Positions 6,650 through 25,306 of a DNA stretch of 63,566 bases are shown one piece after another. The position numbers were made by a program, and so were the translations under genes. Location of the stretch: NCBI GenBank assembly GCA_016866215.1, contig VGNE01000016.1, forward strand, positions 1-63,566. Reading direction: 5' to 3'. Within the stretch, counting starts at the first letter, position 1; every line of letters begins with the position of its first letter. Under the pieces are notes generated by a model that saw only the letters and a program-made list of their open reading frames with translations, did not search any database and was not told where the DNA came from. This DNA is from Chloroflexota bacterium (GTDB lineage: Bacteria > Chloroflexota > Anaerolineae > Anaerolineales > Villigracilaceae).

Positions 6650-6651
6650 AT

Positions 6652-7177: not shown

Positions 7178-7191
7178 TTATAGAGGAAATT

Positions 7192-9831: not shown

Positions 9832-9946
9832 TGGTTGAGAGTCGAATACGTATCAAGAGCAGAACGAATAGGATGAAAGTGATGCTTGCTTCCTACTTTC
9901 ATTATATGTATACTTAGGCAAACAAATTAATCAAGGAGATGAAACG

Positions 9947-10246
9947 ATGGATGATAAAACCAAAGGCGTTATTGCCACGATTGCTTCAGCTCTGCTTTGC
10001 GGATGTCCAGGCTTGTTCATGTGTTTCTTTGGTGCGATATCTGTTTTAGCCAGTATGACGCCGGGCGCGGAGATTGACGTGTTGGGAAGCAGTGATCCTG
10101 CATCCGCAACGACAATGGGGATTGTGTTTTTGTGCCTTTCCATAATTTTTATCGCCATCCCCATTGCTGTCGGCTTTTTCATGCTTCGCAAGAAACCGCA
10201 AACCATGCCCGCCAGTGATGACGAACCGCTTCCGCCTGCTTCCTAG
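9947..10246 (+). CDS. Small two-helix membrane protein of unknown function
   Basis: 99 residues. AAGGAG lies nine bases before the ATG. Two hydrophobic segments are visible (about residues 8-36 and 53-82), separated by an extracytoplasmic loop with acidic and Ser/Ala residues; the C-terminus is a short Pro/Asp/Glu-rich tail. The first helix contains CGCPGLFMCFFG, a Cys/Gly-rich stretch. I recognise no family. It is monocistronic, with a strong terminator directly after it that it shares with the converging lipoprotein gene. Confidence 0.65.
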   Translation: MDDKTKGVIATIASALLCGCPGLFMCFFGAISVLASMTPGAEIDVLGSSDPASATTMGIVFLCLSIIFIAIPIAVGFFMLRKKPQTMPASDDEPLPPAS

Positions 10247-10250
10247 GTTA

Positions 10251-10287
10251 AAAAAAATTCTCCGAGCAAAACTCGGAGAATTTTTTT
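10251..10287. terminator. Bidirectional intrinsic terminator
   Basis: ATTCTCCGAG pairs perfectly with CTCGGAGAAT around a four-base loop, with A-run on the left and T-run on the right, so it works for both converging genes. It overlaps the stop codon of the minus-strand lipoprotein. Confidence 0.9.
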
Positions 10288-10924
10288 AATTTACGATAAT
10301 GGTCAGTTTGAGGGGACAAAACCAGTTTTTCCCAACAGTTATTTTCCACTCTGTCTTATAAGTTCCCGGTTCAGCAGGGGCCTTCATCTTGACTGTGAGA
10401 TCAATCATACCGCCGGGCAATACCGAGGACGGCAAATCATAGATAGAAGCCATATGAATTCTGTCGCCGCTCGAATAACGATAATCCGTATCGGATGAAA
10501 ACCAGGCATTTTTGCCTATGTTCGCCACCTGCCAGGTCGTATCAAATGCGGCGCCTGGCGAAAACGCGCTGTCGTTTTTTGGATTTTGTAAAATGATCTG
10601 ACAATCATACTGCGCGCTTGAACTGCCCGGCTTAACCATTGTAGGGAGAACAGTAACGGTAGGGAGGAGAAAGATGAAGGTCGGTGTGGGCGTTTCGGTA
10701 GGCGTATGCGCCGGCAAAGGAGTGGCCGTGAAGGTAAGCGTGGGCGGCAACTTGAGCGCAGTTTGGGTTGCCGCCGCTCCAGCGGTTTGGGCGACCATGG
10801 TGTTGATCGAATTCGGGTCAAAGGTGGGTATCGGCGCAGAGGCAGGCGCAAGGGTTGGCACGCAAGCCAGCACAATCCCTGTGATGACCAAAGCTGCACA
10901 GACCCTGATATTTCGCCGAATCAT
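10286..10924 (-). CDS. Lipoprotein with NBR1-type Ig-like domain (1)
   Basis: 212 residues from the ATG at 10924 (MIRRNIRV, GGGAGA site), chosen to place the signal peptide at the N-terminus. The lipobox is GIVLAC. Then follow a short helix with the repeat MVAQTAGAAATQTA, a Thr/Pro-rich linker, and a C-terminal beta-sandwich matching the 'NBR1 Ig-like' domain (KNDSAFSPGAAFDTTWQVANIGKNAW, then DLPSSVLPGGMIDLTVKMKAPAEPG and TYKTEWKI). Such surface lipoproteins are common in Anaerolineae; the role is not established. A diverged tandem paralog is upstream at 10943-11572. Confidence 0.8.
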   Translation of the reverse strand: MIRRNIRVCAALVITGIVLACVPTLAPASAPIPTFDPNSINTMVAQTAGAAATQTALKLPPTLTFTATPLPAHTPTETPTPTFIFLLPTVTVLPTMVKPGSSSAQYDCQIILQNPKNDSAFSPGAAFDTTWQVANIGKNAWFSSDTDYRYSSGDRIHMASIYDLPSSVLPGGMIDLTVKMKAPAEPGTYKTEWKITVGKNWFCPLKLTIIVN

Positions 10925-10942
10925 TTTCTCTCCCAAAATCCT

Positions 10943-11572
10943 TTATTTCACAATGATCGCCACATACGGATAGCAAAGCTGTCCTTGCACTGTCCAGGTC
11001 ATCACCTGGAAACCTTTTTCATCCGGTACAACTGCATCCAGATTGATTTCGTATGTTGCTTTGGGCTTCATTTCCTTGGGAATCTCAACGACTGTGAGGC
11101 TTGTCATTTTTGGGCCGCTGTAATATTTCACATCGTAACCAACATCCCATGTCTTTTTGCCGGTATTGACAATCGTCCACTTGATGTCAAATTTTGCGCC
11201 TTTGTTATATTCGGTATTATCCCTTGGTTTGCTGTTGATGATGTCACAGGCGTAATCCGCTTGATATGACGTGCCGCCGCCGCTGGAGGGCGGATTAACC
11301 GGAAACGCTGTGACCGTTGGGATGATCGCGGTCAGCGTCGGGAAGGCAAGCGGTGTGTTGGTTGGCGGTTGTGTAGATTCAGCAGTGGGTGTAAATAATA
11401 AGTTTTGTGCGGCAACCGTTTGCGCCACAGAATCTTCAATCTGCTGTCTGGCTTCCAGGGTTTGAGCAACAGCGGTATTGACCTGCGATTGCATATCCAC
11501 AGGGCTTTGACCGGGCAAACAAGCGGTCAATATTAAAGCCAGGGTGACAAGAACGAACATGGTTTTACGCAT
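10943..11572 (-). CDS. Lipoprotein with NBR1-type Ig-like domain (2)
   Basis: 209 residues from the ATG at 11572 (MRKTMFVLVT; AAAGGAGAC precedes it). Lipobox LILTAC. Residues ~25-65 contain two AVAQT units (NTAVAQTLEA and DSVAQTVAA), probably a surface coiled coil, then a Thr/Pro linker and an NBR1-like Ig domain (YNKGAKFDIKWTIVNTGKKTW; IPKEMKPKATYEINLDAVVP; FQVMTWTV). It is 18 bp upstream of its paralog and probably in the same transcript. The paired arrangement suggests duplication; function unknown. Confidence 0.8.
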   Translation of the reverse strand: MRKTMFVLVTLALILTACLPGQSPVDMQSQVNTAVAQTLEARQQIEDSVAQTVAAQNLLFTPTAESTQPPTNTPLAFPTLTAIIPTVTAFPVNPPSSGGGTSYQADYACDIINSKPRDNTEYNKGAKFDIKWTIVNTGKKTWDVGYDVKYYSGPKMTSLTVVEIPKEMKPKATYEINLDAVVPDEKGFQVMTWTVQGQLCYPYVAIIVK

Positions 11573-11642
11573 AGTAGTCTCCTTTATGGAAAGGCCGGAC
11601 AGGGTAGTATCTCTGAGGGAAACCTGCCGGTTTCCTGATCGG

Positions 11643-12974
11643 TTAATCTGATTCGCCGGAACCAATTCCGAGCGGCTTCCACTTGTTTTCGTCTTTCAGA
11701 CGATGCTGAAACCCATCTCGGTTGTGCAATTCGTCGAAGCCTTCTGGCTTGATGAACATTTGATCGCCATCGAGCAAACCAGTGAGACCTGTCTGGCCGG
11801 GTTCCGGGCGCTTATTCTGACAGAATTTGCAAGTCTTCGGGTCATGCGATTTGTACTCGGTCGGCTCTTCGTACGTTGTCACATAGCCTTCATAGTTACG
11901 CACGATCACTTTGTGATCTGACATGCTCAGCATGTAGTTCGGTGTGACAGGAATCTTACCACCTCCGCCGGGCGCATCCACGATGAATTGTGGGACAGCG
12001 TAGCCGGAAGTATGTCCGCGCAGGCCTTCGATGATCTCGATACCTTTTGCAACGGGCGTACGGAAGTGACCTGAACCTTCAACCAGATCACATTGATACA
12101 AGTAATATGGACGGACACGAATGCGAGTGAGCTTTTGAACCAATTCGCGCTGCATGTGGACACAGTCATTCACGCCCGCCAGCAGAACAGATTGATTGCC
12201 CAAAGGAATTCCCACACGGCTCATCCGGTCACAAGCATCGGCGAGTTCCTTCGTGATCTCATTGGGATGGTTGACATGAATATTCAACCACAATGGGTGG
12301 AACTTGGCGAGCATGTCGCACAGCTCTTGTGTGATGCGCATCGGCATAAAGACCGGCACGCGTGACCCAATGCGGACTATTTCAATATGCGGTATCTCAC
12401 GTAAACGAGCGAGCAGCTCTTCCAAGATTTTTGGAGCCAGCACAAGCGGGTCACCGCCGGAGAGAAGCACATCGCGCACTTGCGGGGTGCGTTTGAGATA
12501 ATCGATCTGCATCTCAAAATCCTTGCGGTTGAATGTTTGACCGGGGTCGCCGACAATGCGCGAGCGTGTGCAATAACGGCAGTACGACGCGCACTGGGTC
12601 GTTACCAGCATGAGTACTCTGTCAGGATAACGGTGAACAAGCCCAGGTACGGGAGAGTGGCGGTCCTCCGCAAGCGAGTCCTCCATCATGGATGTGAACG
12701 CGTTCAGTTCCTCCGCAACAGGAATGATCTGCTTGCGGACGGGATCATTCGGATCGTCCGGGTCAACCAAGGAAATAAAGTAGGGCGTCACATCCACGCG
12801 GAACAAATCTTGCGTTTGCAGAGCCTTGCGCTCGCTCTCTGTGATCGGTAAAACTTTTTCGATATCTTCTGCTGTATTCAGGCGGTTACTTAATTGCCAG
12901 CGCCAATCGTTCCATTTTTCATCTGGGACATCGGCATAAATGGGCGCACGTTTTGAAAGTATAGGGGTGGGCAT
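11643..12974 (-). CDS. kamA: Lysine 2,3-aminomutase (radical SAM)
   Basis: 443 residues from the ATG at 12974 (GGAGGAAAGAACC precedes; longer frames start in the leader). Converts L-lysine to L-beta-lysine using SAM, a [4Fe-4S] cluster and PLP. The radical SAM motif is C128-x3-C132-x2-C135 in QCASYCRYC. The two Asp residues that hold lysine in the clostridial enzyme are present, in YQCDLVEG and FIVDAPGGGG, which argues for lysine and against glutamate or arginine aminomutases. Residues near the C-terminus (CKFCQ) carry extra Cys as in the family. No beta-lysine acetyltransferase (ablB) is in the window. It is divergent from the agmatinase-like gene across a 280-bp region with a perfect inverted repeat. 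Confidence 0.92.
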   Translation of the reverse strand: MPTPILSKRAPIYADVPDEKWNDWRWQLSNRLNTAEDIEKVLPITESERKALQTQDLFRVDVTPYFISLVDPDDPNDPVRKQIIPVAEELNAFTSMMEDSLAEDRHSPVPGLVHRYPDRVLMLVTTQCASYCRYCTRSRIVGDPGQTFNRKDFEMQIDYLKRTPQVRDVLLSGGDPLVLAPKILEELLARLREIPHIEIVRIGSRVPVFMPMRITQELCDMLAKFHPLWLNIHVNHPNEITKELADACDRMSRVGIPLGNQSVLLAGVNDCVHMQRELVQKLTRIRVRPYYLYQCDLVEGSGHFRTPVAKGIEIIEGLRGHTSGYAVPQFIVDAPGGGGKIPVTPNYMLSMSDHKVIVRNYEGYVTTYEEPTEYKSHDPKTCKFCQNKRPEPGQTGLTGLLDGDQMFIKPEGFDELHNRDGFQHRLKDENKWKPLGIGSGESD

Positions 12975-13098
12975 GGTTCTTTCCTCCGAAAGTTGAACTT
13001 TTAAAATTAAACAGCACGCGGTCAAATGCGCTTGTGTGGAGGGTCATGATCGGGTCGAAAAAATCCAGCAAACTTTAAGTACATCAATACCGCCTGTT

Positions 13099-13167
13099 GC
13101 ATAAATTACCAAACTTTTTGGGATGCATCGCGAGTAACAATGATGTTTCTAGCCTGGTAATTTATGC
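13099..13167. repeat. Perfect 13-bp inverted repeat between kamA and the ureohydrolase gene
   Basis: GCATAAATTACCA (13099-13111) and TGGTAATTTATGC (13155-13167) are exact reverse complements, 43 bp apart, in the divergent promoter region. It may be an operator pair, a small hairpin element, or part of a transcription stop. Confidence 0.6.
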
Positions 13168-13256
13168 GGCACTATATATCATTGTAAAAGCAAACGGAAG
13201 GCGGGTCAATGTCATTATTCTTAGGGAGTACAATTGGGTCATTTAAAGGAGCGAAT

Positions 13257-14150
13257 ATGGCACTTGAAGGTAATCATGGTTTTTGGGGTGATCTCCACCG
13301 CCCCGATCTCACTCCCAACCAGGCTGATTTCAGCATTATCGGTATTCCTTATGATGGACTTGCCAGCGCGAGAAAAGGTGCAGCACAGGCACCAGAACGC
13401 TTGCGGTATTGGTCGCGCCACTTAACTCCTTTTAGTGAAGACAGAACCCGTTTGAAGGATTTAACCGTCTGCGATCTGGGCGACATCCTGATCACCGATC
13501 CTGTTCGTGACTTTGAATTGGTCCGCCAAAAAGTAGCGACTCTACCCAACATGCCGATTCTGTTGGGCGGAGATCATTCCGTGGCCATTCCCATTTTTGA
13601 GGGACAACGCGAACGTTACAAAGATCAGCGGCTGGGCGTACTATGGGTGGATGCGCACCCCGATCTGTGCGACAACTTCGACGGCTCAAAACTTTCTCAT
13701 GCATGTGTTCTGCGGCGCGGTATTGAATTTGGAATCGAACCACATGATATTTGCATGGTTGGTCTGCGCTCGTGGGAAGACCAGGAAATTGACATCATCG
13801 AAAACGGCGGCGTGCACGTTTACACCGCCGCCGATGTTGCCGAGCGTGGCATCCGAAAAATAACGGATAGCGTCCATAACATCCTCAAAGACTGCGATGC
13901 AATTCATATCTCGCTTGATATTGACTGTCTTGACCCATCTGCTGCGCCGGGTACGGGCATCCCCGAATTTGGAGGATTAACCTCGCGTGATGTTTTGAAT
14001 CTGCTCAAATCCATGCAAGGACTTCCGCTTGTTGGGTTGGATGTCGTTGAGATCGCGCCTCCGCTTGACCCTTCTGAAGCCACAGTCTTCGCAGGCTTGA
14101 AAATTATCATGGAATACATCGCTGTCATTGCGCGCGAAAAACAGAAATAA
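13257..14150 (+). CDS. speB: Agmatinase-type ureohydrolase
   Basis: 297 residues from the ATG at 13257 with AAAGGAG at the right distance; the earlier in-frame start at 13209 lacks a site. Arginase-family manganese ligands are all present: GGDHS, DAHPDLCD, and SLDIDCLDPS. The rest (IGIPYDGLASARKGAAQAPERLR, FGGLTSRDVL, VEIAPPLDPSEAT) fits agmatinases rather than arginases; substrate assignment within the family remains tentative. Agmatinase turns agmatine into putrescine and urea. Monocistronic except for a GNAT remnant 14 bp downstream. Confidence 0.85.
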   Translation: MALEGNHGFWGDLHRPDLTPNQADFSIIGIPYDGLASARKGAAQAPERLRYWSRHLTPFSEDRTRLKDLTVCDLGDILITDPVRDFELVRQKVATLPNMPILLGGDHSVAIPIFEGQRERYKDQRLGVLWVDAHPDLCDNFDGSKLSHACVLRRGIEFGIEPHDICMVGLRSWEDQEIDIIENGGVHVYTAADVAERGIRKITDSVHNILKDCDAIHISLDIDCLDPSAAPGTGIPEFGGLTSRDVLNLLKSMQGLPLVGLDVVEIAPPLDPSEATVFAGLKIIMEYIAVIAREKQK

Positions 14151-14344: not shown

Positions 14345-14369
14345 TCATTTTCAGGTTTTTCTTAAAAAC

Positions 14370-14397
14370 TTGACTCCGCCATTTTTTATACTATACT
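14370..14397 (+). promoter_or_regulatory. Sigma-70 type promoter for the first Rrf2 gene
   Basis: TTGACT (14370-14375) and TATACT (14392-14397) are separated by 16 bp, and the start codon follows 31 bp later at 14429. Confidence 0.65.
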
Positions 14398-14428: not shown

Positions 14429-14833
14429 ATGAAACTAACAGCACGTAGCGAATATGCTCTTCTAGCTCTCGTCTTCCTCGCCCGTAATGAATCGGAGGGA
14501 TATATTTCTGTTGACACCATTGCACAGGCACAAAAAATTCCTCCTAAATTCCTGGAACAGCTCATGCTGGCTTTGAAACGCGCCCACTTCCTTCGCAGTA
14601 CCAAGGGTCAGCATGGCGGTTATCAGCTTGCGAAAAAGCCAGACCAGATTACTCTGGCAGAAGTGATCCGTCTCTTTGACGGTGCGCTGGCACCGACCGA
14701 ATCGGTCAGCGAGAATTTTTATGAATCGACCCCGATTGAAAAAGAAAAGAAACTGACCAGGGTATTCAAGGATATTCGCGACTACGTTTCTCAGAAACTG
14801 GAGAAAACCACTATTGCGGATGTAATGAAATAA
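14429..14833 (+). CDS. Rrf2-family transcriptional regulator (1), cysteine-free
   Basis: 134 residues. N-terminal winged helix typical of Rrf2/IscR (MKLTARSEYALLALVFLA; then KIPPKFLEQLMLALKRAHFLRSTKGQHGGYQLAKKP), followed by the dimerisation helix region. The three cysteines that ligate Fe-S in IscR/NsrR are missing; there is no Cys at all. It shares with its neighbour (15002-15391) the pattern IRLFDGALAP, SE..Y, P.E.E.KLT and a KLE.T..AD ending, so the two are paralogs. It is the first of two such genes ahead of a Fe-S/GTPase operon, which suggests local regulation. Confidence 0.9.
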   Translation: MKLTARSEYALLALVFLARNESEGYISVDTIAQAQKIPPKFLEQLMLALKRAHFLRSTKGQHGGYQLAKKPDQITLAEVIRLFDGALAPTESVSENFYESTPIEKEKKLTRVFKDIRDYVSQKLEKTTIADVMK

Positions 14834-14860
14834 CAGATCAACTCAAGCTGATTTCCAACC

Positions 14861-14896
14861 AATAGCCACCCTGAAAATGGGCGGCTATTATTTTGT
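14861..14896 (+). terminator. Intrinsic terminator after Rrf2 gene 1
   Basis: AATAGCC pairs with GGCTATT with an inner CC/GG, followed by ATTTTG. It separates the two Rrf2 genes, which also have separate promoters. Confidence 0.7.
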
Positions 14897-14950
14897 AATG
14901 ATCAACTTCCTATATTCCTATATCAAATATCATAATTCAACAACTGAATA

Positions 14951-14978
14951 TTGACAAAACAAAAGTTTTGGCTATAAT
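14951..14978 (+). promoter_or_regulatory. Sigma-70 promoter for the second Rrf2 gene
   Basis: TTGACA (14951-14956) and TATAAT (14973-14978), both consensus, 16 bp apart, 23 bp ahead of the start codon. The spacer region AAAACAAAAGTTTTG is a near-palindrome that could bind a dimeric regulator. Confidence 0.8.
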
Positions 14979-15001
14979 CCCCATTGAGTTAGTCATATAA
15001 C

Positions 15002-15391
15002 ATGAAACTATCCTTGCTTAGTGAATACGCCCTGCTCTCACTCATCCACTTAGTGCGACAGCCTGATACGGTAACCACCTCGGCATCGATCGGAGGCTCC
15101 CAGCAAATTCCGTCTGAGGTGTTGCATGAAATTTTGATTGCACTTGCCGATGCAAAGTACTTGCGGCTTAAGAAAGGGAGCATTTATCTTGCCAAGCCTG
15201 CTGACAAAATCTCGGTTGCTGACATCATCCGCCTCTTTGATGGCGCCCTGGCACCCCTCGAACCCATCAGCGAAAAAGGCTATCAGCCTGCGCCCATGGA
15301 GAGGGAAGAAAAACTAACCGAGCTATTTAGCCAACTCCAGGAACAGATCATCGGCAAGCTGGAACATACAAGTCTGGCTGACCTGATTTAA
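15002..15391 (+). CDS. Rrf2-family transcriptional regulator (2), cysteine-free
   Basis: 129 residues, paralog of the gene just upstream and likewise without any cysteine. The winged helix begins MKLSLLSEYALLSLIHLVRQ; the wing is shorter (LRLKKGSIYLAKP) because the usual G-G-Y segment is partly lost. It is 82 bp ahead of the ABC ATPase gene, with no terminator of clear strength between, so it may be the first gene of that operon. What it senses is not visible. Confidence 0.88.
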   Translation: MKLSLLSEYALLSLIHLVRQPDTVTTSASIGGSQQIPSEVLHEILIALADAKYLRLKKGSIYLAKPADKISVADIIRLFDGALAPLEPISEKGYQPAPMEREEKLTELFSQLQEQIIGKLEHTSLADLI

Positions 15392-15473
15392 TTTTTTTTA
15401 TCATGATATATGATTATGTCAATAGGATAAGTAATAAATAGACATTGTCCATCCAAATAACCAAGGAGAAAAA

Positions 15474-16259
15474 ATGATCGAAACAATCACAATTTTTGGC
15501 GGACACAGCCGTGACGGAGAACCTGAAGCGGTGCAGCGCATTGAACTGAAAATGGGCGATGTGGTCAGCATCGTTGGACCCACCGGTTCAGGCAAGACTA
15601 CTTTCATCAACGATATCGAACTGTTTGCAAACGGCAACACCCAGACCGGACGACGCATCCTGATCAACGGCGTACTGCCTCCAGTGGAGTATCGCGACAA
15701 TCCGTCTTTGAATCCAATCGCGCTGATTACACAACACACCACTTTCCTGTCCGACCTCCCCGTTCTGGAATTTCTCACCGAACATGCCGGCATCCGTGTG
15801 CTGGATAAAAGCCTGATCGAGCAGATGATTGCCGACACGCTGTCTTTTGCCAATCAGTTGACCGGCGAACCGATCATCCCCGGCGTCCGCATGACCGAAC
15901 TCTCCGGCGGACAAACCCGCGCCCTGCTCATCGCTGATGCGACCATCATTTGCGATACCCCCATCGTCCTGTTGGATGAAGTGGAGAACGCCGGCATTAA
16001 CCGTTCGCGCGCGCTGGAATTACTCCGCGCCTACCGCAAGATTTTCATCTTCGTCACACACGATCCGCGCATTGCGTTGCTCTCGGATTATCGCATCGTC
16101 ATGAAGGGCGGAAGCATCACTGACTTGCTGCGTACCAACGAAGAAGAACGCGCCTTTTCACATCAAGTCGCCAAACTTGACGACCTGCTCGCTGTCATGC
16201 GCGACAAGATCCGCTTTGGCGAACGTCTCACCACTCACGAACTGGAAGGATTCGCATGA
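15474..16259 (+). CDS. Soluble ABC-type ATPase without membrane partner
   Basis: 261 residues. One ABC domain: Walker A GPTGSGKTT (residues 35-43), signature LSGGQ near 145, Walker B IVLLDEVENAG, switch His in FVTHDPRIAL. There is no transmembrane segment and no permease gene nearby; instead a GTPase gene overlaps its stop by four bases. The extra C-terminal 45 residues are helical. AAGGAG precedes the ATG. By context (GTPase, cysteine desulfurase, Fe-S protein) I infer a role in assembly or activation of a metalloenzyme, loosely comparable with soluble ABC proteins such as SufC or methyl-CoM reductase component A2. That role is not shown by the sequence. Confidence 0.75.
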   Translation: MIETITIFGGHSRDGEPEAVQRIELKMGDVVSIVGPTGSGKTTFINDIELFANGNTQTGRRILINGVLPPVEYRDNPSLNPIALITQHTTFLSDLPVLEFLTEHAGIRVLDKSLIEQMIADTLSFANQLTGEPIIPGVRMTELSGGQTRALLIADATIICDTPIVLLDEVENAGINRSRALELLRAYRKIFIFVTHDPRIALLSDYRIVMKGGSITDLLRTNEEERAFSHQVAKLDDLLAVMRDKIRFGERLTTHELEGFA

Positions 16260-16957
16260 AACTCTGTATTTGTGCCGGCCCTGCAACGACCGGCAAATCC
16301 GCTGTCCTACGTCACATGATCTCGAAATTACAAGCCGCTGGCGACAGCGTGGCCTTTCTCAAAGTTGACGTGCAATATGCCGAGGAAGATGAAATCTTCG
16401 CAAGGGAGTTCGGCATCCCGACTCGCAAAGTTTATTCAGGAGAACTGTGTCCTGACCACTGTAACGTGATGGTGCTTGGTGACGCCATGCAATGGGCGGA
16501 AAAATCCGGGGCGAATATCTTGTTGGTCGAAACTGCTGGTTTGTGCCTGCGCTGTTCCCCCTACGTGGACGGCGGACTGGGCATGATCGTCATCGAAGCC
16601 ACCAGCGGAACGAACCTGCCGCTCAAGATCGGTCCCATGCTTTCGCTTGCCGACGTGGCCGTCGTCACCAAAATTGACCGCGTATCACAGGCTGAACGCG
16701 AAGTATTCCGTGCACGCATCCAGACCGTTGCCCCCAATGTGAAAGTCCGCGAAGTGAACGCCCTGTACGGAATTGGCATTGACCCGCTGGTGGACATCCT
16801 GCGCAACCAGCCCGACACCTGGGACAAGATGATGTTGCGCGGCAACCCTCCCGTCGGCACATGTACCATCTGTGTCGGCAAAAAAGAAATCGGCTGGCAG
16901 GCGCACTTTGGCGTTGTCCGCTCGCTGGAGAATCAGAACTTCTATCGTGGTGAATAA
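16256..16957 (+). CDS. G3E-type GTPase (HypB/UreG/CobW-like) with Cys pairs
   Basis: 233 residues; ATGA overlap with the ABC gene implies translational coupling. P-loop GPATTGKS (8-15), VETAG as switch II, and TKID (138-141) as the GTP specificity motif put it in the SIMIBI metal-chaperone group. Three Cys pairs could bind metal or Fe-S: C65-x3-C69 (CPDHC), C97-x2-C100 (CLRC, directly after the switch) and C203-x2-C206 (CTIC). It lacks the N-terminal Cys/His region of HypB and the CXCC of CobW, so it is not an ordinary member of either. Likely a nucleotide-gated metal or cluster insertase for an unidentified client. Confidence 0.75.
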   Translation: MKLCICAGPATTGKSAVLRHMISKLQAAGDSVAFLKVDVQYAEEDEIFAREFGIPTRKVYSGELCPDHCNVMVLGDAMQWAEKSGANILLVETAGLCLRCSPYVDGGLGMIVIEATSGTNLPLKIGPMLSLADVAVVTKIDRVSQAEREVFRARIQTVAPNVKVREVNALYGIGIDPLVDILRNQPDTWDKMMLRGNPPVGTCTICVGKKEIGWQAHFGVVRSLENQNFYRGE

Positions 16958-16971
16958 TAAATAGCATGTCA

Positions 16972-16999
16972 CACCTGCACTTGCGCGCAGGTGCAAGTG
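16972..16999 (+). promoter_or_regulatory. Two mutually exclusive hairpins
   Basis: CACCTGC/GCAGGTG (16972-16978 with 16987-16993) and CACTTGC/GCAAGTG (16978-16984 with 16993-16999) are both perfect 7-bp stems that share bases, so only one can form at a time. They sit between the GTPase and desulfurase genes. Confidence 0.4.
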
Positions 17000-17105
17000 T
17001 TGCGAAGGAGCATGTTCTCCGCGATTGAAGCAATCTCCAAGTAAATGGGACTTTCCACTTAACAGGAGATTGCTTCGCCGCCAAGAACGGGCGGCTCGCA
17101 ATGAC
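17000..17105. repeat. Dispersed palindromic element, copy 2
   Basis: Starts TTGCGAAGGAGC and ends CTCGCAATGAC, with internal AGCAATCTCC / GGAGATTGCT arms. It fills most of the gap before the desulfurase gene; the copy ends 20 bp before that start codon. Confidence 0.75.
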
Positions 17106-17125
17106 ATAGATAGGAAAGGAAAACC

Positions 17126-18304
17126 ATGTCACAAATTTATTTCGACCACTCAGCCACCACCCCACTCGACCCGCGCGTCGTCGAAGCCATGCTCCCGTTT
17201 TACGGGGCGAATTTTGGCAACCCGTCCAGCCTGCACTGGACTGGACAGCAGTCCAAGCAAGCTATTGACGAAGGCCGCCAGCAGTTAGCAGACTTGTTCC
17301 ACGCCAGCCCCGATGAAATTGTCTTCACCGCCAGCGGCACAGAATCCGACAACATGGTTTTGATCGGGGTGGCAACTCAATACAAGCCGCAGGACTGTCA
17401 CATCATTACCTCGTCGTTTGAACATCCCGCGGTCCTGGAGACCTGCAAGTATCTTCAAAAACTTGGCTATGAAATCAGTTATCTGCCCGTGACACCGGAA
17501 GGCATTGTTGATCCAGAGTCGCTCAAACAGGCATTAAGACCCAACACGCGTCTTGTCTCCGTGATGGCTGCCAATAATGTTGTCGGCACGCTTCAACCCA
17601 TTGCCGAACTTGCAAAGATCACCAAAGCGCAAGGCGCATTATTCCACACAGACGCGGTGCAAGCCGTTGGAAAAATCCCACTGCATATAAACACTCTGCC
17701 CGTTGACCTGCTCTCGCTTTCTGCGCACAAACTTCATGGCCCAAAAGGCATCGGCGCGCTGTACATTCGCAAAGGTGTAAAGATCGCGCCGCTTGTTCAC
17801 GGCGGCGGGCAAGAGCGCGGCATTCGTTCCGCCACGGAAAATGTCGCGGGGATTGTCGGTCTCGGGAAAGCCGCGGCAATTGCCGGCGCGGAAATGAGCG
17901 CAGAGGCGAGCCGTCTCGTCAAATTGCGAGACCGCATCATCGCCGAAGTCCAAAATCAAATCCCCAACGCCTATCTGATCGGACACCCATACAAACGATT
18001 GCCCGGCCACATCTGTCTCGGCTTCGCGGGACAGGAAGGCGAAGCCATCCATCTCATGCTCGCGTTGAATGAAGAAGGTATTGCGATCTCGACCGGCTCC
18101 GCCTGCAGCGCGCACAATGCGGGACAGCCTTCCTACATTTTGATGGCGATGGGCATGGACGCTGTGCGGGCGCGCGGCTCATTGCGGATCACGCTCGGCC
18201 GCTTCAATACGGACTTCGAAGTTGATTCGTTTCTAGAGATATTACCGCGGCTGGCAGCGAATCTGAACACCATCACATCCCGCGAGTTTGCTGCTGTTTC
18301 ATAA
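17126..18304 (+). CDS. Cysteine desulfurase, NifS/IscS type
   Basis: 392 residues. PLP enzyme that takes sulfur from cysteine as a persulfide for cluster or thio-cofactor assembly. Visible: IYFDHSATTPLDPRV start, SGTESDN, AMAANNVVGTLQPI, HTDAVQAVGKI, PLP lysine in SAHKLHGPKGIGALY, and the mobile catalytic loop STGSACSAHN with its Cys. The site AAAGGAAAACC precedes the ATG. Position between the GTPase and the Fe-S protein suggests a dedicated sulfur donor for this operon; no IscU/NifU scaffold is in the window. It could also serve general Fe-S assembly. Confidence 0.93.
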   Translation: MSQIYFDHSATTPLDPRVVEAMLPFYGANFGNPSSLHWTGQQSKQAIDEGRQQLADLFHASPDEIVFTASGTESDNMVLIGVATQYKPQDCHIITSSFEHPAVLETCKYLQKLGYEISYLPVTPEGIVDPESLKQALRPNTRLVSVMAANNVVGTLQPIAELAKITKAQGALFHTDAVQAVGKIPLHINTLPVDLLSLSAHKLHGPKGIGALYIRKGVKIAPLVHGGGQERGIRSATENVAGIVGLGKAAAIAGAEMSAEASRLVKLRDRIIAEVQNQIPNAYLIGHPYKRLPGHICLGFAGQEGEAIHLMLALNEEGIAISTGSACSAHNAGQPSYILMAMGMDAVRARGSLRITLGRFNTDFEVDSFLEILPRLAANLNTITSREFAAVS

Positions 18305-18326
18305 ATTAACCAAAGGAATCCAAACA

Positions 18327-19103
18327 ATGACTCTCCCAACCACTACATACTCTGTGAACGACCTGCCCGGCTTGAACTGCGGCGTCTGCGGCTTGCGCAG
18401 TTGCGAAGAAATGGCCGCTCGCTTGCAAGATAACCCCGACCTGATCAAACGCTGCATCTATCTTTCGGATAACCGCTATGAAGCGCGCGAGATCGCAACC
18501 GAGAATCGCGTCAACCCGTTGAACTACCCCGTTTCTCCCGTACCGACAATTAACGCGCAGCCCACACTTTCCACCTGTGCCGGTTGCGCTACATCGCCCA
18601 GCCAGACCACCTCTTTCATCCCCGGCATGAGCAACCCATGGCGGGACAGCCTCGGACGCGAATTCGATTTCTATCTCGAACACTTTCCCGAAGAACCCGG
18701 TCCTCGTGAAATCATCCTTCCGCACAATCCCCTCATCACGCGCGAAATGGATATCCAAGTCGGCGATATTTTGATTGGCCGTCCGCTCGGTATGTCCTGC
18801 GGATGTCCTATCACCCACTGCGGAGTCGCCATGAGTGTTGACAAGCGCACGGGCGTGATCGTGTGGTGCGTAACGGGTCCGCTCAATCCGCGCCAAAATG
18901 GATTCAAAGACCTTGGCTACTACATCGCCGAAGGCTACGAAGGCATGATCACCGAAGCGCGCGCGGAGATCAAGATCGGCATGCGTTACTTCTTCCAGCC
19001 GCGCATGTGCATGCTGCAATGGCGGCACAGCGGATTGGTCAACTTCATGAACCGCACGCCCACTGGTTATCAAGTGCGCGTCGAAGGTTTGTGGATCGGG
19101 TGA
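18327..19103 (+). CDS. Fe-S protein with CFeSP/RnfB-type cluster domain
   Basis: 258 residues from the ATG at 18327 (AAAGGA site); earlier in-frame codons overlap the upstream gene. The N-terminus has a 4Fe-4S domain of the type in the corrinoid Fe-S protein and RnfB: LPGLNCGVCGLRSC with C18, C21, C26 and C43. A second pair is C84/C87 (CAGC), and a third group is SCGCPITHCG in the middle, with further single Cys later (VWCV, RMCML). The remaining fold is not one I recognise. So many cysteines suggest two or more clusters, either as an electron donor or as a carrier to a client enzyme. Last gene of the run with the ABC ATPase, GTPase and desulfurase. Confidence 0.7.
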   Translation: MTLPTTTYSVNDLPGLNCGVCGLRSCEEMAARLQDNPDLIKRCIYLSDNRYEAREIATENRVNPLNYPVSPVPTINAQPTLSTCAGCATSPSQTTSFIPGMSNPWRDSLGREFDFYLEHFPEEPGPREIILPHNPLITREMDIQVGDILIGRPLGMSCGCPITHCGVAMSVDKRTGVIVWCVTGPLNPRQNGFKDLGYYIAEGYEGMITEARAEIKIGMRYFFQPRMCMLQWRHSGLVNFMNRTPTGYQVRVEGLWIG

Positions 19104-19382: not shown

Positions 19383-20825
19383 ATGAATAAGATAACCCTA
19401 CCGATGTCAGATCAGAATCGTGTCTACAACAATATCCTTCAAACCATAGGAAGAACCCCTCTCATCCATCTTGGAAGGATTGGGCGTGAATTACCGGCTT
19501 CCCTTTACGCAAAAGTGGAATATTTCAACCCCGGCGGCTCGATCAAGGACCGCATTGCCGTGAACATTATTGAAGACGCCGAACACGCTGGACGATTGAA
19601 GCCCGGCGGCACCGTGGTGGAATCCACTTCCGGGAATACCGGCATGGGACTTGCGCTTGTCTGCGCTCAAAAGGGATACAAAGCCGTCTTTGTCATGCCC
19701 GATAAGATGAGCCAGGAAAAAATTCAACTGCTTTCTGCGCATGGAGCGCGGGTAGTTATTACTCCCACCGCGGTCGAGCCGGATGATCCGCGCTCGTATT
19801 ACAACGTCGCTAAACGCATCGCTGCCGAGACCCCCAACGCGATCCTTGCCAATCAGTATCATAACCCTGAGAATCCGCGCAGTCATTACCTGTCTACTGG
19901 CCCGGAAATATGGGAGCAGACCGAGGGGAAGATCACCGATCTGGTCGCCTGCATGGGCACCGGCGGAACAATCAGTGGGACGGCGTGTTACCTGAAAGAA
20001 AAGAATCCGAACATCCGCATCGTTGGCGTGGATCCGCTTGGCTCGATCCTGCTGGAGACATGGAAAAACGGGGGCAGGATTCCAGAAGGCGCCAAGGCTT
20101 CCCCATATAAAGTGGAAGGCTTCGGGGAGGATTTTCTGCCGTCCACTTTGAATCTCTCGTTGATTGATGAGGTTGTCCGGATCAATGATAAAGAATCGTT
20201 TTTGTGGGCGCGTCGTTTGGTGAAAGAGGAGGGGATTTTCTCCGGTGGCTCCGCCGGCGCGGCGCTGGCCGCAGCAGTACGTTATGCTCAGAGTTTGAGA
20301 ATTGAGAATGCAGATCAGGGGAGCGAACGCTTGATTGTGGTGATATTGCCGGACTCAGGCTCTCGTTATCTATCCAAACTCTACGATGATAAGTGGATGC
20401 GGGAAAACGGGTATCTGGAACCAGAGTGGAGTGGAACTCAATTGGGTGAGATTCTGGATGCCAAATCGTCAAGTCGCCTGATTACGACCTGGGTAACAGA
20501 TCGTATGACGGATGTAATCGCCTCCTTGAAGGAACATGACGTTTCCCAAATGCCTGCCCTATATTCGGATGGGACATTGGCAGGTCTGGTAACCGAAGTT
20601 GATTTATTAAATCATATGCTGGAGAATGGCTACGAACATTCCCCGGACGAAACGATTGAAAGCGTGATCCGCCCTGCGGAGACTCTCTTCCCATCTTCAA
20701 CTCGTTTGGATGACGCTTTGCCGGCCCTGGTCAGCGAGCAGGCAGTGCTGGTTACCGAAGACGACCATCCCTTGGGTATCCTTACCAAAATAGACATCCT
20801 GGACTTTATCGCCCAGAAAATCTAA
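19383..20825 (+). CDS. Cystathionine beta-synthase-type PLP enzyme with C-terminal CBS pair
   Basis: 480 residues. Fold-type II PLP domain (1-330): PLP lysine K55 in PGGSIKDRIA, STSGNTGMGLA phosphate loop, GTGGTISG, SGGSAGAAL. The C-terminal 140 residues hold two CBS motifs (TTWVTDRMTDVIASLKEHDVS and the segment from ESVIRPAETLFPS to GILTKIDILDF), as in eukaryotic and some bacterial CBS proteins where they bind adenosyl ligands. It condenses serine or an activated serine with homocysteine or sulfide; which one cannot be decided from sequence. A CTGGAG site precedes the ATG. The structured RNA upstream and the cysK remnant downstream point to sulfur amino acid metabolism. Confidence 0.88.
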   Translation: MNKITLPMSDQNRVYNNILQTIGRTPLIHLGRIGRELPASLYAKVEYFNPGGSIKDRIAVNIIEDAEHAGRLKPGGTVVESTSGNTGMGLALVCAQKGYKAVFVMPDKMSQEKIQLLSAHGARVVITPTAVEPDDPRSYYNVAKRIAAETPNAILANQYHNPENPRSHYLSTGPEIWEQTEGKITDLVACMGTGGTISGTACYLKEKNPNIRIVGVDPLGSILLETWKNGGRIPEGAKASPYKVEGFGEDFLPSTLNLSLIDEVVRINDKESFLWARRLVKEEGIFSGGSAGAALAAAVRYAQSLRIENADQGSERLIVVILPDSGSRYLSKLYDDKWMRENGYLEPEWSGTQLGEILDAKSSSRLITTWVTDRMTDVIASLKEHDVSQMPALYSDGTLAGLVTEVDLLNHMLENGYEHSPDETIESVIRPAETLFPSSTRLDDALPALVSEQAVLVTEDDHPLGILTKIDILDFIAQKI

Positions 20826-20943: not shown

Positions 20944-21276
20944 CTATTCCACATCAATACTTTCGATCTTGACATCATCTCCGCTAATTAATTTCAAACG
21001 ATGACTCTGGCAGGCCGGGCATATTATGATCTCTTCCTTGGGATGAAAAACTGTGTCACATTCAAGACACTTCATTTCCGCATCCACGTATTGGAAATGT
21101 AATTTCGTTCCCTGCGCAAGTGTGCCTTTGGCGAGATCATCCCAATAAAATCGGATCGACTCTTCGCGTTCATCTGAAAGTTCGCCGATCAGCAAATTTA
21201 CTTGCAGGAGTTTCTTCGCGCCGGCATTTTTCAGTGCGATATTAAGAATATTTTGGGTGAGGGAAAGTTCGTGCAT
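20944..21276 (-). CDS. hypA: Hydrogenase nickel incorporation protein HypA
   Basis: 110 residues from the ATG at 21276, giving MHELSLTQNIL, where the N-terminal Met-His2-Glu binds nickel. The zinc site is two CxxC pairs (KCLEC and CPAC). HypA delivers Ni to the large subunit of [NiFe] hydrogenases together with HypB. Last gene of the hydrogenase operon, 78 bp after the protease. No hypB, C, D, E or F is in the window, so the rest of the maturation set must be elsewhere. Confidence 0.93.
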   Translation of the reverse strand: MHELSLTQNILNIALKNAGAKKLLQVNLLIGELSDEREESIRFYWDDLAKGTLAQGTKLHFQYVDAEMKCLECDTVFHPKEEIIICPACQSHRLKLISGDDVKIESIDVE

Positions 21277-21354
21277 ATCTGCCTTAAACCTACCCCCTTT
21301 AGTGATCATGTCCAAGATGGAGAATGCCACCCCTGGGAATGATTTTCTTCTCGA

Positions 21355-21846
21355 TTATCCTACCGCCTGTTTCAACAGATCAAGTACAACACCTGCCGCA
21401 AATGGGACCGCCTCTGCAACAGGCGGTGAAAGTTCCTCGCTGAAATCATAGATTCTCCTGGTCGCAATTCCCACGATCTCAATATCATCCGGCAGTGACG
21501 CGCCCATGGACCTGCCCAATTCAATCGCATTTTGCAGGGAGGTATCGTGCGCGCTGCTCGTATGAAAGGCGGAATAATTTGGCAAGTCGCTTAACTTCAA
21601 AACCAATATCGAACCAACCGGCTCATCCAATGCAAACGCGTCAATCAGAATGGCGCGGTCATAGCCAACGAGACGTTCCATCAAACTGAGGCCGCCGAGC
21701 GAGAGGCAATCTACATCAACCCTCATCCCCTGCCCTCCTCCCTGAAAGGGGGAGGGGAGTTGGCGTTTCACTTCCTCCGCAACTCTCCATCCAACGCCGT
21801 CATCGCCAAGAATGGGATTGCCAAGCCCGATCACCAATGTTTTCAT
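21355..21846 (-). CDS. Hydrogenase maturation protease (HyaD/HycI family)
   Basis: 163 residues from the ATG at 21846 (MKTLVIGLGNPILGDDGVG). The Ni-binding Glu/Asp positions of the family fit GNPILGDDGVG and the Asp in AILIDAF; the His is in HDTSLQNAI. It would remove the 27-residue C-terminal extension of the large subunit once nickel is in place. Odd: residues around 31-41 (SPFQGGGQGM) are encoded by a C-rich dispersed-repeat-like sequence (21722-21762) and look like an in-frame insertion in a surface loop. Confidence 0.9.
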   Translation of the reverse strand: MKTLVIGLGNPILGDDGVGWRVAEEVKRQLPSPFQGGGQGMRVDVDCLSLGGLSLMERLVGYDRAILIDAFALDEPVGSILVLKLSDLPNYSAFHTSSAHDTSLQNAIELGRSMGASLPDDIEIVGIATRRIYDFSEELSPPVAEAVPFAAGVVLDLLKQAVG

Positions 21847-21912
21847 AACGACAGTCTCGCCCTTCGACACGTTCAGGACACCGTTTCTTATCAGGCCTCA
21901 ACCTGTTCCCGT

Positions 21913-23379
21913 TTAACAAAACTGTTTCAACACTTTTACAGGATTCCCAGCCACATCATGGATGGTGATCTGCAATGGCATTTGACCCGGCAGTGAATGG
22001 GTCGCGCAACCGAAGCATGGATCATAGGCGCGGAACGCCATCTCCACCATGTTGAGCAAACCCTCATTCACATTGCCATCCTTGATAAGACTTGTCGCGG
22101 CCTTATGCGTGGACATTTGAATGGGCGCGTAGTTGTTGGTGGTGCCAACGATGAGATTCACTTTGGTAACAACGCCCCGTTCATCGGTCCAGTAGTGATG
22201 CGTGAGGGTGCCGCGCGGCGCCTCGACGATGCCCACGCCTTCCGTCGGAGTCTGGGTCGGCCTGGTGTGTACATTCGGTGATGTGATCTCAGGGTCAGCC
22301 ACCAGCTCCACCCAGCGTTCCGCCGCGTATAGCAACTCGATCAGTCGCGCCCAATGGATGGCGAGGCGTTGATGCACGGGCTTGCCGCCAAAGATATCGT
22401 AGAATTTTTGATATTCCTCCTGTGCGAGCGGTGTTGCCATGCCGTCAGAAGCGTTGAGGCGGGAAAGCGGCGTTGCCATGTAGATGCCAGAGTCTTCGCC
22501 ATCCACAAAACCTTTCCAGCCGACCTTCTTGAGATATGGGAATTTGAGATAAGTCCACGGCTCAACATGCTCGGCGATATGCTCGGCATAATCCTTCGGC
22601 TCATATTTGACAAACTCCTTGCCATTCGGGTCAACCACGCGGACTTTGCCATCATAGAAATTGACTTTATTGTTCTCGTCCACCATGCCCATGTAATAGG
22701 TGCGGTGGGTATACACGTCGCCGAGGATGAGGTCCACATAGGCCTTGTTGCCAAGCACGATGTCATTGAATATCTTCAGGCTGAACTGTGCGAAGTCAAT
22801 CGCCCAGCGCCCCATCTCTTCGATCTCTTTGCGCTGTTCCCCGGTGATGCCTTTTGTAATGCCGCCCGGAATTGAAGTGCATGGATGGACTTTGCGTCCG
22901 CCGATCATCTCGACGACGGTATGCCCATACTTGCGCATTTGAATAACTTTGCCGCCGATCTCCAATCCCACTTTGTGGATCACGCCCAGAATATTCCTTT
23001 CTGCAACGGGCGCATCGGGTCCCATTACGAAATCGGGACCGCCCAATGCGTAGAAGTGAGTCGTGTGGTCGGTGCAATAGAATGCGGAGTACAGCAACTC
23101 GCGCAGCATCTTCGCCGTGCGAGGCGGGTCTACGTGATAGACCATGTCCGCCGCTTTGGAGGCCGCCATGTGATGCGCCTCCGGGCAGACCCCGCAGATG
23201 CGGTTTGTCAACAGCGGCATTTCCTCAATGGGACGCCCCACGCAGAATCTTTCAAAGCCGCGCAGTTCGGGAATCTGAAAATACGAGTTGGCGACATTTC
23301 CCTTTTCATCGAGAAATATTTCGATCTTGCCGTGGCCTTCCAGGCGGGTAACGGGGTCAATGGATATTCGTTGGGTCAT
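21913..23379 (-). CDS. mvhA: [NiFe]-hydrogenase large subunit, group 3c (MvhA-like)
   Basis: 488 residues from the ATG at 23379 (MTQRISIDPVTRLEGHG; GGAGA site). Ni ligands: L1 motif R60-I-C62-G-V-C65 and L2 motif D453-P-C455-F-G-C458-A-T-H461. The 27 residues after H461 form the extension removed by the maturation protease, evidence of a true [NiFe] active site. With MvhG, MvhD and HdrABC nearby it fits the soluble complex that oxidises H2 and bifurcates electrons to ferredoxin and a disulfide-type acceptor. In methanogens the acceptor is CoM-S-S-CoB; in this bacterium it is unknown. Confidence 0.95.
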   Translation of the reverse strand: MTQRISIDPVTRLEGHGKIEIFLDEKGNVANSYFQIPELRGFERFCVGRPIEEMPLLTNRICGVCPEAHHMAASKAADMVYHVDPPRTAKMLRELLYSAFYCTDHTTHFYALGGPDFVMGPDAPVAERNILGVIHKVGLEIGGKVIQMRKYGHTVVEMIGGRKVHPCTSIPGGITKGITGEQRKEIEEMGRWAIDFAQFSLKIFNDIVLGNKAYVDLILGDVYTHRTYYMGMVDENNKVNFYDGKVRVVDPNGKEFVKYEPKDYAEHIAEHVEPWTYLKFPYLKKVGWKGFVDGEDSGIYMATPLSRLNASDGMATPLAQEEYQKFYDIFGGKPVHQRLAIHWARLIELLYAAERWVELVADPEITSPNVHTRPTQTPTEGVGIVEAPRGTLTHHYWTDERGVVTKVNLIVGTTNNYAPIQMSTHKAATSLIKDGNVNEGLLNMVEMAFRAYDPCFGCATHSLPGQMPLQITIHDVAGNPVKVLKQFC

Positions 23380-23435
23380 AGGGTCTCCAATCGGTAATGC
23401 GAAATTTTTTCGCATCACGTTTTACGCATTACAAA

Positions 23436-23687
23436 TTATTTTTCCAGCGACGAGGCATCGTCGTGCAATTCCTTGATAAAGTGCGCCCGCGCTTCGACCT
23501 CTTCCATCTTGAGCGAGGCGTACTGCGAGGCTTCCTTCATCAGCTTCTCGACAACGTCGGCTGGCAGTTTTTTGAGGCCTTCGTGCGAATAGCCCTTTTC
23601 ATGAAGATACTCTTCGATGAGGGATTTTTCCAAAAGTGCGTTGCGGTCTTCAACGGGTTCGGTTTTTTCAGTCTGTTTCGCAGTCAT
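23436..23687 (-). CDS. Small acidic helical protein inside the hydrogenase operon
   Basis: 83 residues from the ATG at 23687 (AGGAGG site; an earlier in-frame ATG has none). Charged and predicted helical throughout (MTAKQTEKTEPVEDR, then EEYLHEKGYSHEGLKKLP, then VEARAHFIKELHDD), without Cys, His clusters or membrane segments. I do not recognise it. It lies between the genes for the small and large hydrogenase subunits, a place where dedicated chaperones or small structural subunits are often encoded. Confidence 0.7.
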   Translation of the reverse strand: MTAKQTEKTEPVEDRNALLEKSLIEEYLHEKGYSHEGLKKLPADVVEKLMKEASQYASLKMEEVEARAHFIKELHDDASSLEK

Positions 23688-23739
23688 GTCAGCCTCCTCT
23701 AGAAAGGATGAAAGATGAAGGATGAAGGCAGGCAAGTGT

Positions 23740-24750
23740 TCATTCACCCTGCGTCCTTTTATCTATCCTTTTCCAGGCTTCCCTGTTTGCTTTGAGCAGG
23801 GATCCTGCGAGATTGAAGCGATAGACCTGCCCGGTTGGGTCAGGGATGCCATCCAGAATATGATCGATCTCTTCTGGTGTATTTGCATCAATGACGGAAG
23901 CAAATGCCGTCATCAGCCGCGCGCCGTAATCCATCACGCCCTCGGCTGGACCATAACAACCAATACACTGCGCGCCCGCCTGCGGACAGCGTGCATTACA
24001 TCCACTGCGCGTGGCAGGACCGTTGCATGGAATGCCTTGCTCGAGAATGCAGAGAGTTGGATCAACAGGGGCAATATCCTGAATGCGCGTGAATTCTTTG
24101 ATCAATTTCACATTTCGCGCGCGCGGACATTCATCGCACACTGTTGAGTCGCCAACGCCGATAGTTGCGCCTTTTGGCGGCAGTTCCGCTTCCCCTTTGA
24201 CAACTTTGATGACCAGATCAATCACCGCCGCAATCTGATGCGATTCAGGCGGACAACCCGGCATGTAGTAATCCACATCCACAACCTGATCAAGCGGACG
24301 TAAAATCGGAAAAAGTTTCGGGATATGCAATTCACCTTCGGATACGTCATAAGTTGTCTGTGGGTAAATCTCATTTGGATTATCGGTTGTGATCGTGTTG
24401 AACGCCGTGTGGACAATCTCATCCACTGGGCTGAGATTTGCCAAGCCAGGGATGCATCCCTCGCACGCACACGAACCAAACGAGACGAGTATCTTGGATT
24501 TCTGCCGCAGTAGTTTGGCGATGTGTTCATTCTCGTCGTTACGGATTCCGCCATTGAAGAGCGTGAGCAGGATCGAACCATCTTCCATGGCTTCCACATC
24601 TTTGTACTTGGCATCCATTGCCACAGGCCAGAATACAACATCGAAGTTCGCATCCACATCCAGAATCTTTTCATGAGTGTTCAATACAGCAATTTCACAT
24701 CCGCCACAGGAAGCCGCCCAATACATTGTGAACTTTGGCTTTGTAGTCAT
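23740..24750 (-). CDS. mvhG: F420-non-reducing-type hydrogenase small subunit (MvhG-like)
   Basis: 336 residues. No Tat signal, so cytoplasmic. Proximal cluster ligands: CGGCE at 15-19, GSCACEG near 93, GCPP near 165. A C-terminal Cys-rich region (CDECPRAR; CILEQGIPCNGPATRSGC; CPQAGAQCIGCYGP) supplies the medial and distal clusters. The start ATG overlaps the mvhD stop by four bases. It passes electrons from the NiFe site to MvhD. Confidence 0.92.
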   Translation of the reverse strand: MTTKPKFTMYWAASCGGCEIAVLNTHEKILDVDANFDVVFWPVAMDAKYKDVEAMEDGSILLTLFNGGIRNDENEHIAKLLRQKSKILVSFGSCACEGCIPGLANLSPVDEIVHTAFNTITTDNPNEIYPQTTYDVSEGELHIPKLFPILRPLDQVVDVDYYMPGCPPESHQIAAVIDLVIKVVKGEAELPPKGATIGVGDSTVCDECPRARNVKLIKEFTRIQDIAPVDPTLCILEQGIPCNGPATRSGCNARCPQAGAQCIGCYGPAEGVMDYGARLMTAFASVIDANTPEEIDHILDGIPDPTGQVYRFNLAGSLLKANREAWKRIDKRTQGE

Positions 24751-25229: not shown

Positions 25230-25261
25230 AGTTCTTCTCCTAACCGCAGCGCGTAACCCGT

Positions 25262-25306
25262 GATGCGTGATTCGTAATTTACGGATTACGCATTACGAAT
25301 CACGCC
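25262..25306. repeat. Short-unit palindromic repeat between mvhD and hdrA
   Basis: GCGTGATTCGTAAT and ATTACGAATCACGC form a perfect 14-bp inverted pair with further GGATTACGCATTAC between. Related strings occur after mvhA (23394-23430) and before ftsK (about 50808). Confidence 0.6.

Follow-up and report, generated by a model that had tools for sequence, protein, structure and literature searches.

The window analysed here is a 63,566-nt stretch of contig VGNE01000016.1 (assembly GCA_016866215.1) from a Chloroflexota bacterium of the family Villigracilaceae. Between positions 14429 and 19103 it carries an operon of six open reading frames (ORFs), all verified as present and running in a single direction (+). 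Three of them, encoding an ABC ATPase, a HypB/UreG-like GTPase and an iron-sulfur (Fe-S) protein, recur together as a conserved unit, here called the trio. Its neighbors are cysteine/methionine and sulfate genes in some of the bacteria, ComA/ComB in two Firmicutes loci and coenzyme M (CoM) genes in methanogens. The window locus is a version of this core with a NifS-type desulfurase and regulators added. The features, with domain calls from Pfam and NCBIfam models, are as follows:

14429..14833, +, Rrf2-family regulator 1 (Pfam Rrf2, E 2.3e-35; 0 Cys)
15002..15391, +, Rrf2-family regulator 2 (Pfam Rrf2, E 4.4e-20; 0 Cys)
15474..16259, +, soluble ABC ATPase, core gene 1 (Pfam ABC_tran)
16256..16957, +, HypB/UreG-like GTPase, core gene 2 (Pfam cobW, 43.1 bits, cut-off 20.7)
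17126..18304, +, NifS-type cysteine desulfurase, optional gene (Aminotran_5; NifS is the best model)
18327..19103, +, Fe-S protein, core gene 3 (short FeS domain PF04060)
19383..20825, +, cystathionine beta-synthase/CysK-like pyridoxal-phosphate (PLP) enzyme with CBS domains (TIGR01137 above cut-off)

Organization of the operon

The ABC ATPase and GTPase genes share an ATGA overlap. The Fe-S gene was listed with a TTG start at 18288, and the alternative ATG at 18327, 22 nt past the end of the NifS gene, is the more likely start. The CBS/CysK-like gene lies on the same strand, 279 nt 3' of the Fe-S gene, and probably encodes a pathway partner outside the core. A sequence-only reading of this DNA had described a cofactor operon with two Cys-less Rrf2 regulators, an ABC ATPase lacking a membrane partner, a NifS protein and an Fe-S protein with a CFeSP/RnfB-like domain. 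These descriptions stand: both regulators are free of cysteine, the desulfurase is assigned as listed above, PF04060 matches the Fe-S protein with 31.5 bits (cut-off 23), and none of the six operon proteins matches a membrane-protein family in the Pfam/NCBIfam scan.

CymR, a sensor of sulfur supply, is the top-scoring specific model for Rrf2 regulator 1, with 89.7 bits, below the cut-off of 195; regulator 2 reaches 33.8 bits against the same model. Scores against the IscR equivalog are 70.3 and 23.1 bits, respectively (cut-off 207.55), and neither protein has a cysteine that could serve as a ligand of the IscR 2Fe-2S cluster. Inverted repeats are present 5' of each Rrf2 gene, at 14351-14373 and 14946-14979; the latter, which shares bases with a TTGACA-like hexamer, is a possible operator. 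The presence of an Rrf2 regulator and a NifS-type desulfurase in one operon recalls the ISC and NIF systems, from which the window operon differs by its Cys-less Rrf2 proteins, the lack of a scaffold gene and the optional nature of NifS.

The core proteins

The GTPase was aligned with its homologs using 70 of 81 references, the window protein included, near copies and fragments being dropped. C65, H68, C97, C100, C203, C206 and H217 are invariant in 70/70 rows. The sequence-only reading had counted three Cys pairs in this protein; two of them are confirmed, C97/C100 directly behind the G3 motif ETAG and C203/C206 close to the C-terminus, while at the first site C65 is paired with a His, H68 (in CPDH). 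The best PDB matches of the predicted structure (mean pLDDT 85.2) are HypB 2wsm (E 3e-11, TM 0.63/0.71), UreG 4hi0, HypB 2hf8 with Zn and UreG 5xkt with Ni. The Cys and His of HypB align with C65 and H68, and C97 and C100 are one or two positions off the second HypB Cys; the metal motif of UreG is CPH. Scores against the equivalog models are 47.9 bits for HypB (cut-off 121.2) and 23.1 bits for UreG (cut-off 204.2), so the protein is a relative of both and is neither HypB nor UreG. It shares with them the SIMIBI G domain fold, the G-domain motifs and the Cys-His at the metal position, and judged from its sequence it retains the metal-binding positions of these metallochaperones. Unlike HypB and UreG, it has extra Cys residues after the switch, a C-terminal CxxC with a His, and an ABC ATPase partner, and no urease or hydrogenase client is seen for the GTPase of the trio.

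In the ABC ATPase alignment (61 of 79 references, including the window, without near copies and fragments), Lys41, Gln87, the LSGGQ motif (Ser144, Gly146), Asp168, Glu169, Asn172 and His196 are invariant in 61/61 rows, and an unusual DExENAG motif stands behind Walker B. Soluble ABC ATPases are also found in SufC of cluster assembly and in A2 of methyl-CoM reductase activation. By description, the trio protein resembles them in lacking a membrane domain and in working with Fe-S proteins; it differs in having a single ABC domain, a GTPase partner and no SufBD partner in the operon.

The Fe-S protein, whose residues are numbered from one residue past the Met at 18327, was aligned with 67 of 68 references, the window included and one long row dropped. 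Its N-terminal CFeSP/RnfB-type 4Fe-4S domain has C17, C20, C25 and C42 invariant in 67/67 rows, and C159, H163, C227 and H233 (C-H-C-H) of the C-terminal beta domain are equally invariant. The predicted structure has a mean pLDDT of 83.9, with an all-beta part of about 150 residues at approximately 105-257. The N-terminal part resembles the CFeSP structure 4djd_C (Z 4.5 over 42 residues, rmsd 2.0 A), and fold comparison of the beta domain gives a VIA Z of at most 4.3. In the CFeSP large subunit, a TIM barrel and a corrinoid-binding domain stand behind the 4Fe-4S domain. The window protein shares the N-terminal domain only, the remainder being all-beta with neither a TIM barrel nor a corrinoid-binding domain.

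Distribution and gene neighborhoods of the trio

Named genomes were scanned with a three-sequence GTPase alignment and the best 80 of at least 568 relatives (at least 588 matched stretches) were taken as loci, which are therefore no unbiased sample. The ABC ATPase gene lies upstream of the GTPase gene, within 1.1 kb, in 78/80 loci (counting L084, where it is a fragment at a contig end); the exceptions are L055, without an ABC gene, and L059, where it is downstream. The Fe-S gene is downstream of the GTPase, within 2.5 kb, in 69/80 loci, and in 8 of the 11 loci that lack it the stored sequence stops 1.4 kb or less from the GTPase. NifS is immediately 3' of the GTPase in 35/80 loci, followed by the Fe-S gene in 28, and Rrf2 genes are within 4 kb of the GTPase in 25/80, with paired Rrf2 genes in L020, L021 and L052. 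The core is therefore ABC-GTPase-FeS, to which NifS and Rrf2 are optional additions. The linkage proposed from sequence for the four genes thus extends widely for three of them, and NifS is the member that comes and goes.

By title, the 80 loci belong to Chloroflexota, Planctomycetota, Verrucomicrobiota, Omnitrophota, Acidobacteriota, Bacteroidota, Pseudomonadota, Bacillota, Myxococcota, archaea and others. The GTPase is found near full length in 2/25 genomes of the window's genus (G000 and G013, 94% identical). Matches with E <=0.001 occur in 12/41 genomes, but apart from these two none is stronger than E 1e-16, and both of the weaker matches that were inspected are HypB-like. The Fe-S protein is found at full length in 1/400 genomes of the phylum, the window's own, and three further genomes match its N-terminus only. 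In a quick tree, the window and two Chloroflexi rows (support 100) are nested in a 57-row set of mixed phyla, which fits horizontal spread.

Sulfur genes recur around the bacterial loci, a link that the sequence-only reading had overlooked. CysK-like and MetB/MetY-like genes are recurrent near the trio, as found by clustering and by eye, joined in Omnitrophota by MetX- and MetW-like genes, and sulfate-permease-like genes were recognized by eye in L026 and L061. To measure the enrichment, 12 sulfur-assimilation proteins of E. coli (CysA excluded as a general ABC protein) and a control set of 25 proteins from the Trp, His, Leu/Ilv, Arg and Thr pathways were used as queries. The search covered 1178 kb around the trio, made up of 78 bacterial loci (L129-L131 and 75 of the 80), and 474 kb in 40 stretches taken arbitrarily from these genomes. 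Around the trio, the sulfur set gives 30 matches in 16/78 loci and the control set 2 matches in 2 loci, versus 1 and 4 matches, respectively, in the arbitrary stretches (Fisher p 0.001; 2.55 versus 0.21 sulfur matches per 100 kb, rate p 5e-4). The matches are to cysK, metB, cysP/U/W and cysD/N, and cysH, cysI, cysJ, cysC and cysM have no match in the 78 loci. The only Pfam assignment for the cysP-like proteins in L026, L044 and L061 is SBP_bac_11, so sulfate is unproven as their ligand. A homolog of the window CBS/CysK-like protein is near 10/78 of these loci.

In 25 archaeal loci, the sulfur set has 0 matches and the control set 4, and the neighbors are of another kind. Genes for COG1900, cysteate synthase or ComDE-like proteins adjoin the trio in 13/20 archaeal regions (L188, L190, L191, L193-L195, L197, L198 and L201-L205), as assigned by eye and checked with Pfam in L190; such neighbors were not seen by eye in L187, L199, L200, L189 and L206. 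The order in L190 is ABC-GTPase-FeS-COG1900-PLP enzyme-TPP enzyme (Pfam HcyBio, PALP and TPP enzyme). The trio of L096/L097 is flanked by a cysteate-synthase-like gene (Pfam PALP in L096) on one side and ComD/ComE-like genes on the other, and in Firmicutes Pfam identifies ComA upstream of the trio in L087 and L091 and ComB in L087. The GTPase of the trio type (type I), profiled on its own, is present in 34/148 genomes of an archaeal phylum; COG1900 is present in 34/34 of these genomes versus 85/114 of those without, and at least two COG1900 matches are found in 32/34 versus 40/114 (p 3e-10).

The methanogen arrangement is already in print. The legend of Fig. 2 of PMC12068725 mentions, beside the CoM genes of methanogens, an ATPase, a Ni2+-binding GTPase and a COG2000 Fe-S protein, their role being unknown. 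The three kinds of gene are common to that trio and to the window, and archaeal homologs of the window genes sit beside CoM genes. The two are very probably one system; from position and homology, the window-type Fe-S protein would be COG2000. That single legend sentence concerns methanogens only, whereas the present analysis adds the bacterial spread, the version with NifS and Rrf2, and the cysteine and methionine genes. The parts are thus known families whose combination had been noted in methanogens. The earlier statement that no pathway could be named for the operon is upheld as regards assembly systems, qualified by this printed mention. As far as the literature searches on a bacterial trio reach, no report of the bacterial spread or of the cysteine/methionine link was found; a full-text search for COG2000 returned one further, unrelated paper, and the portions of PMC12713407 and PMC12552129 that were available name no such trio.

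A sister type of the trio is a GTPase-ABC pair (type II) found in Clostridia and Fusobacterium. The GTPase search in 82 genomes of the class of a heliobacterium is two-humped, with 7 genomes at E <=1e-112 and 15 with best E of 1e-57 to 1e-72, the other genomes having a weaker match or none; the second hump corresponds to type II. The type II GTPase of L018 has the same Cys/His set except H217, and its ABC ATPase has ENAG. Unlike the trio, the type II pair has no adjoining Fe-S gene in any of the 12 loci read (L018, L137-L146, L148). In eight of them (L137-L144, close relatives of one another) it lies near metal-chelate uptake-like genes, namely FecBCD-like genes recognized by eye, and a DUF364-like "heavy-metal chelation" gene confirmed with Pfam in L137 and L138. 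Several of these eight loci combine DUF364/DUF4213-like, FecBCD-like, methyltransferase and NTPase_1-like genes, possibly a metal-chelate handling cluster. The L018 record (NZ_CP084075.1) is a 2.1-Mb Fusobacterium vincentii sequence labelled as a plasmid with housekeeping-type genes, and is possibly a mislabelled chromosome.

Proposed function and alternative explanations

The trio is an uncharacterised three-protein machine found across many bacterial phyla and in the CoM gene cluster of methanogens. The preferred explanation, held tentatively and with a little less than even confidence, is that it is a module for assembly (or reactivation) of a metal centre serving sulfur incorporation; both the assembly role and the metal are what we infer. 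Driven by NTP, the ABC ATPase and the GTPase would act together to load a metal onto the C-H-C-H residues of the Fe-S partner, its second site; analogy suggests nickel, with iron or another metal also conceivable. In the branch of the window, NifS would donate sulfur for the 4Fe-4S cluster of the Fe-S protein, and the finished protein would move electrons and/or sulfur into thiols or sulfonates, the products in view being cysteine/homocysteine in bacteria and CoM in methanogens. The Cys-less Rrf2 proteins may sense sulfur supply in the manner of CymR. In favor of this explanation are the conserved gene order, found again in archaea, the HypB/UreG matches and invariant Cys/His sets of the core proteins, the metal-chelate genes near type II pairs, the enrichment of sulfur genes around bacterial loci and the excess of COG1900 in archaea with the type I GTPase. 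If this is true, the trio ties a metal centre to sulfur incorporation, and one testable hypothesis covers the trio of the CoM cluster, the sulfite source of methanogens and the formation of sulfide from sulfate without CysJI in Heliophilum fasciatum. Available text of PMC6286981 regards the origin of in situ sulfite as unclear, and that of PMC9147875 describes H. fasciatum as growing on sulfate without CysJI, by a route of sulfite reduction that is open.

Several points weigh against this assembly role. The family scan gives no NifU/IscU/SufB-type scaffold within the operon. The beta domain of the Fe-S model has no PDB match with E <0.001, so the case for the second (C-H-C-H) metal site comes from conservation only. 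As many as 62/78 bacterial loci have no gene of the sulfur set, many of the stored stretches being short, and the p values of the enrichment are optimistic because the loci tested had themselves prompted the idea and relatives among them were left unmerged. The archaeal profile was counted by eye, takes the GTPase as sole marker and is uncorrected for shared ancestry, and the trio is not required for COG1900, since 85 archaeal genomes have COG1900 without a type I GTPase.

The same neighborhoods can be read as sulfur trafficking that involves no special metal, in which a NifS persulfide would be passed by the Fe-S protein to CysK/MetY/COG1900-type enzymes and the ABC ATPase and GTPase would merely power a conformational change or cluster repair. 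The NifS gene directly 3' of the GTPase in 35/80 loci, the sulfur genes nearby and the COG1900 sulfurtransferase gene directly 3' of the trio in methanogens such as L190 are in line with it; NifS is absent at that place in 45/80 loci (some cut by contig ends), however, and the metal-chaperone positions of the GTPase are invariant, and this explanation is unlikely. COG1900 was rejected as a general client, being present in 2/10 trio genomes, both archaeal. Uptake is another possibility, the trio being the cytosolic part of a metal-chelate or oxyanion importer whose ABC ATPase is paired with a binding-protein-like partner. SBP_bac_6 genes (Pfam) that neighbor the type II pairs of L018 and L145, FecBCD-like genes near other type II pairs and binding-protein-like genes near the archaeal trio point in this direction, but the conserved type I unit has no permease gene and the FecBCD-like sets own a separate ATPase, which makes uptake quite improbable. 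The binding-protein-type gene near the archaeal trio of L197 (5601-6539) is NMT1-like by Pfam and has no obvious signal peptide; similar genes occur in L187, L199 and L200.

An improbable alternative is a siroheme-free, ATP/GTP-driven interconversion of sulfite and sulfide, which would reduce sulfite ahead of CysK/MetY in bacteria and, in methanogens and some Firmicutes, supply or handle the sulfite that goes into CoM and sulfolactate; if true, the trio would fill a missing sulfite-to-sulfide step in bacteria. The bacterial loci offer uptake genes (L026, L044, L061), activation genes (L065) and CysK/MetY, yet no CysH/CysI/CysJ match, and the archaea and two Firmicutes loci place the trio with sulfite-using enzymes (cysteate synthase-like, ComA). 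A siroheme reductase domain is found in only 19/52 trio genomes; 39/52 have a CysH/CysD-type PF01507 match with E <1e-20, and 21 of these 39 lack the siroheme domain. In H. fasciatum, the sulfate grower described without CysJI (PMC9147875, available text), the trio adjoins MetY genes and CysK. Against this, 19 of the 21 genomes with a strong CysH-type match among 39 trio-less relatives of the window are without the siroheme domain, a larger share than in trio genomes, and in archaea siroheme reductases accompany the type I GTPase (32/34 versus 75/114 without it). Simple replacement of sulfite reductase was rejected on these two comparisons. Moreover, the H. fasciatum genome has 5 NIR_SIR matches, the window genome has a PF01507 match below cut-off only, some CysDN genes adjoin sulfotransferase-like genes (by eye), and absence from draft genomes is weak evidence. 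Chloroflexi loci L247-L249 have a CysH-like gene in genomes where no siroheme reductase domain turned up, adjoined in L248 and L249 by a related protein of ~550 aa.

The sequence-only reading had named the nearby hydrogenase/Hdr enzymes as possible clients. On the opposite strand of the window, at 20944-30465 (-), lie [NiFe] hydrogenase subunits, protease- and HypA-like genes, and then Hdr-like genes and response regulators, and together with the kinship of the GTPase to HypB/UreG they suggest a machine that matures these enzymes or some other enzyme of the nickel, corrinoid or nitrogenase type. This is highly unlikely. When 13 window proteins were compared with the 78 bacterial loci, matches were obtained only for a response-regulator-type protein (3 loci) and the CBS/CysK-like protein; homologs of the hydrogenase, protease, HypA-like and Hdr-like proteins are absent near these loci, and the hydrogenase/Hdr clients were rejected. 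Of the 40 control regions, two do contain homologs of the Hdr region. Two loci in which the trio has nitrogenase-like neighbors agree with maturation: L032 has a NifH-family gene upstream of the trio, and in L129 (heliobacterium, 1288-14138) a NifS-version trio has a nitrogenase-like pair on either side, MetY and a URO-D gene also being present. The nitrogenase-type domain is over cut-off in only 13/50 trio genomes, however, and nitrogenase-like/methylthio-alkane reductase was rejected as a general client. The genome of L129 holds a second, short trio, L133.

Upstream of the operon, the window has at 11643-14150 a lysine-2,3-aminomutase-like protein, assigned by eye, and an arginase-family protein.

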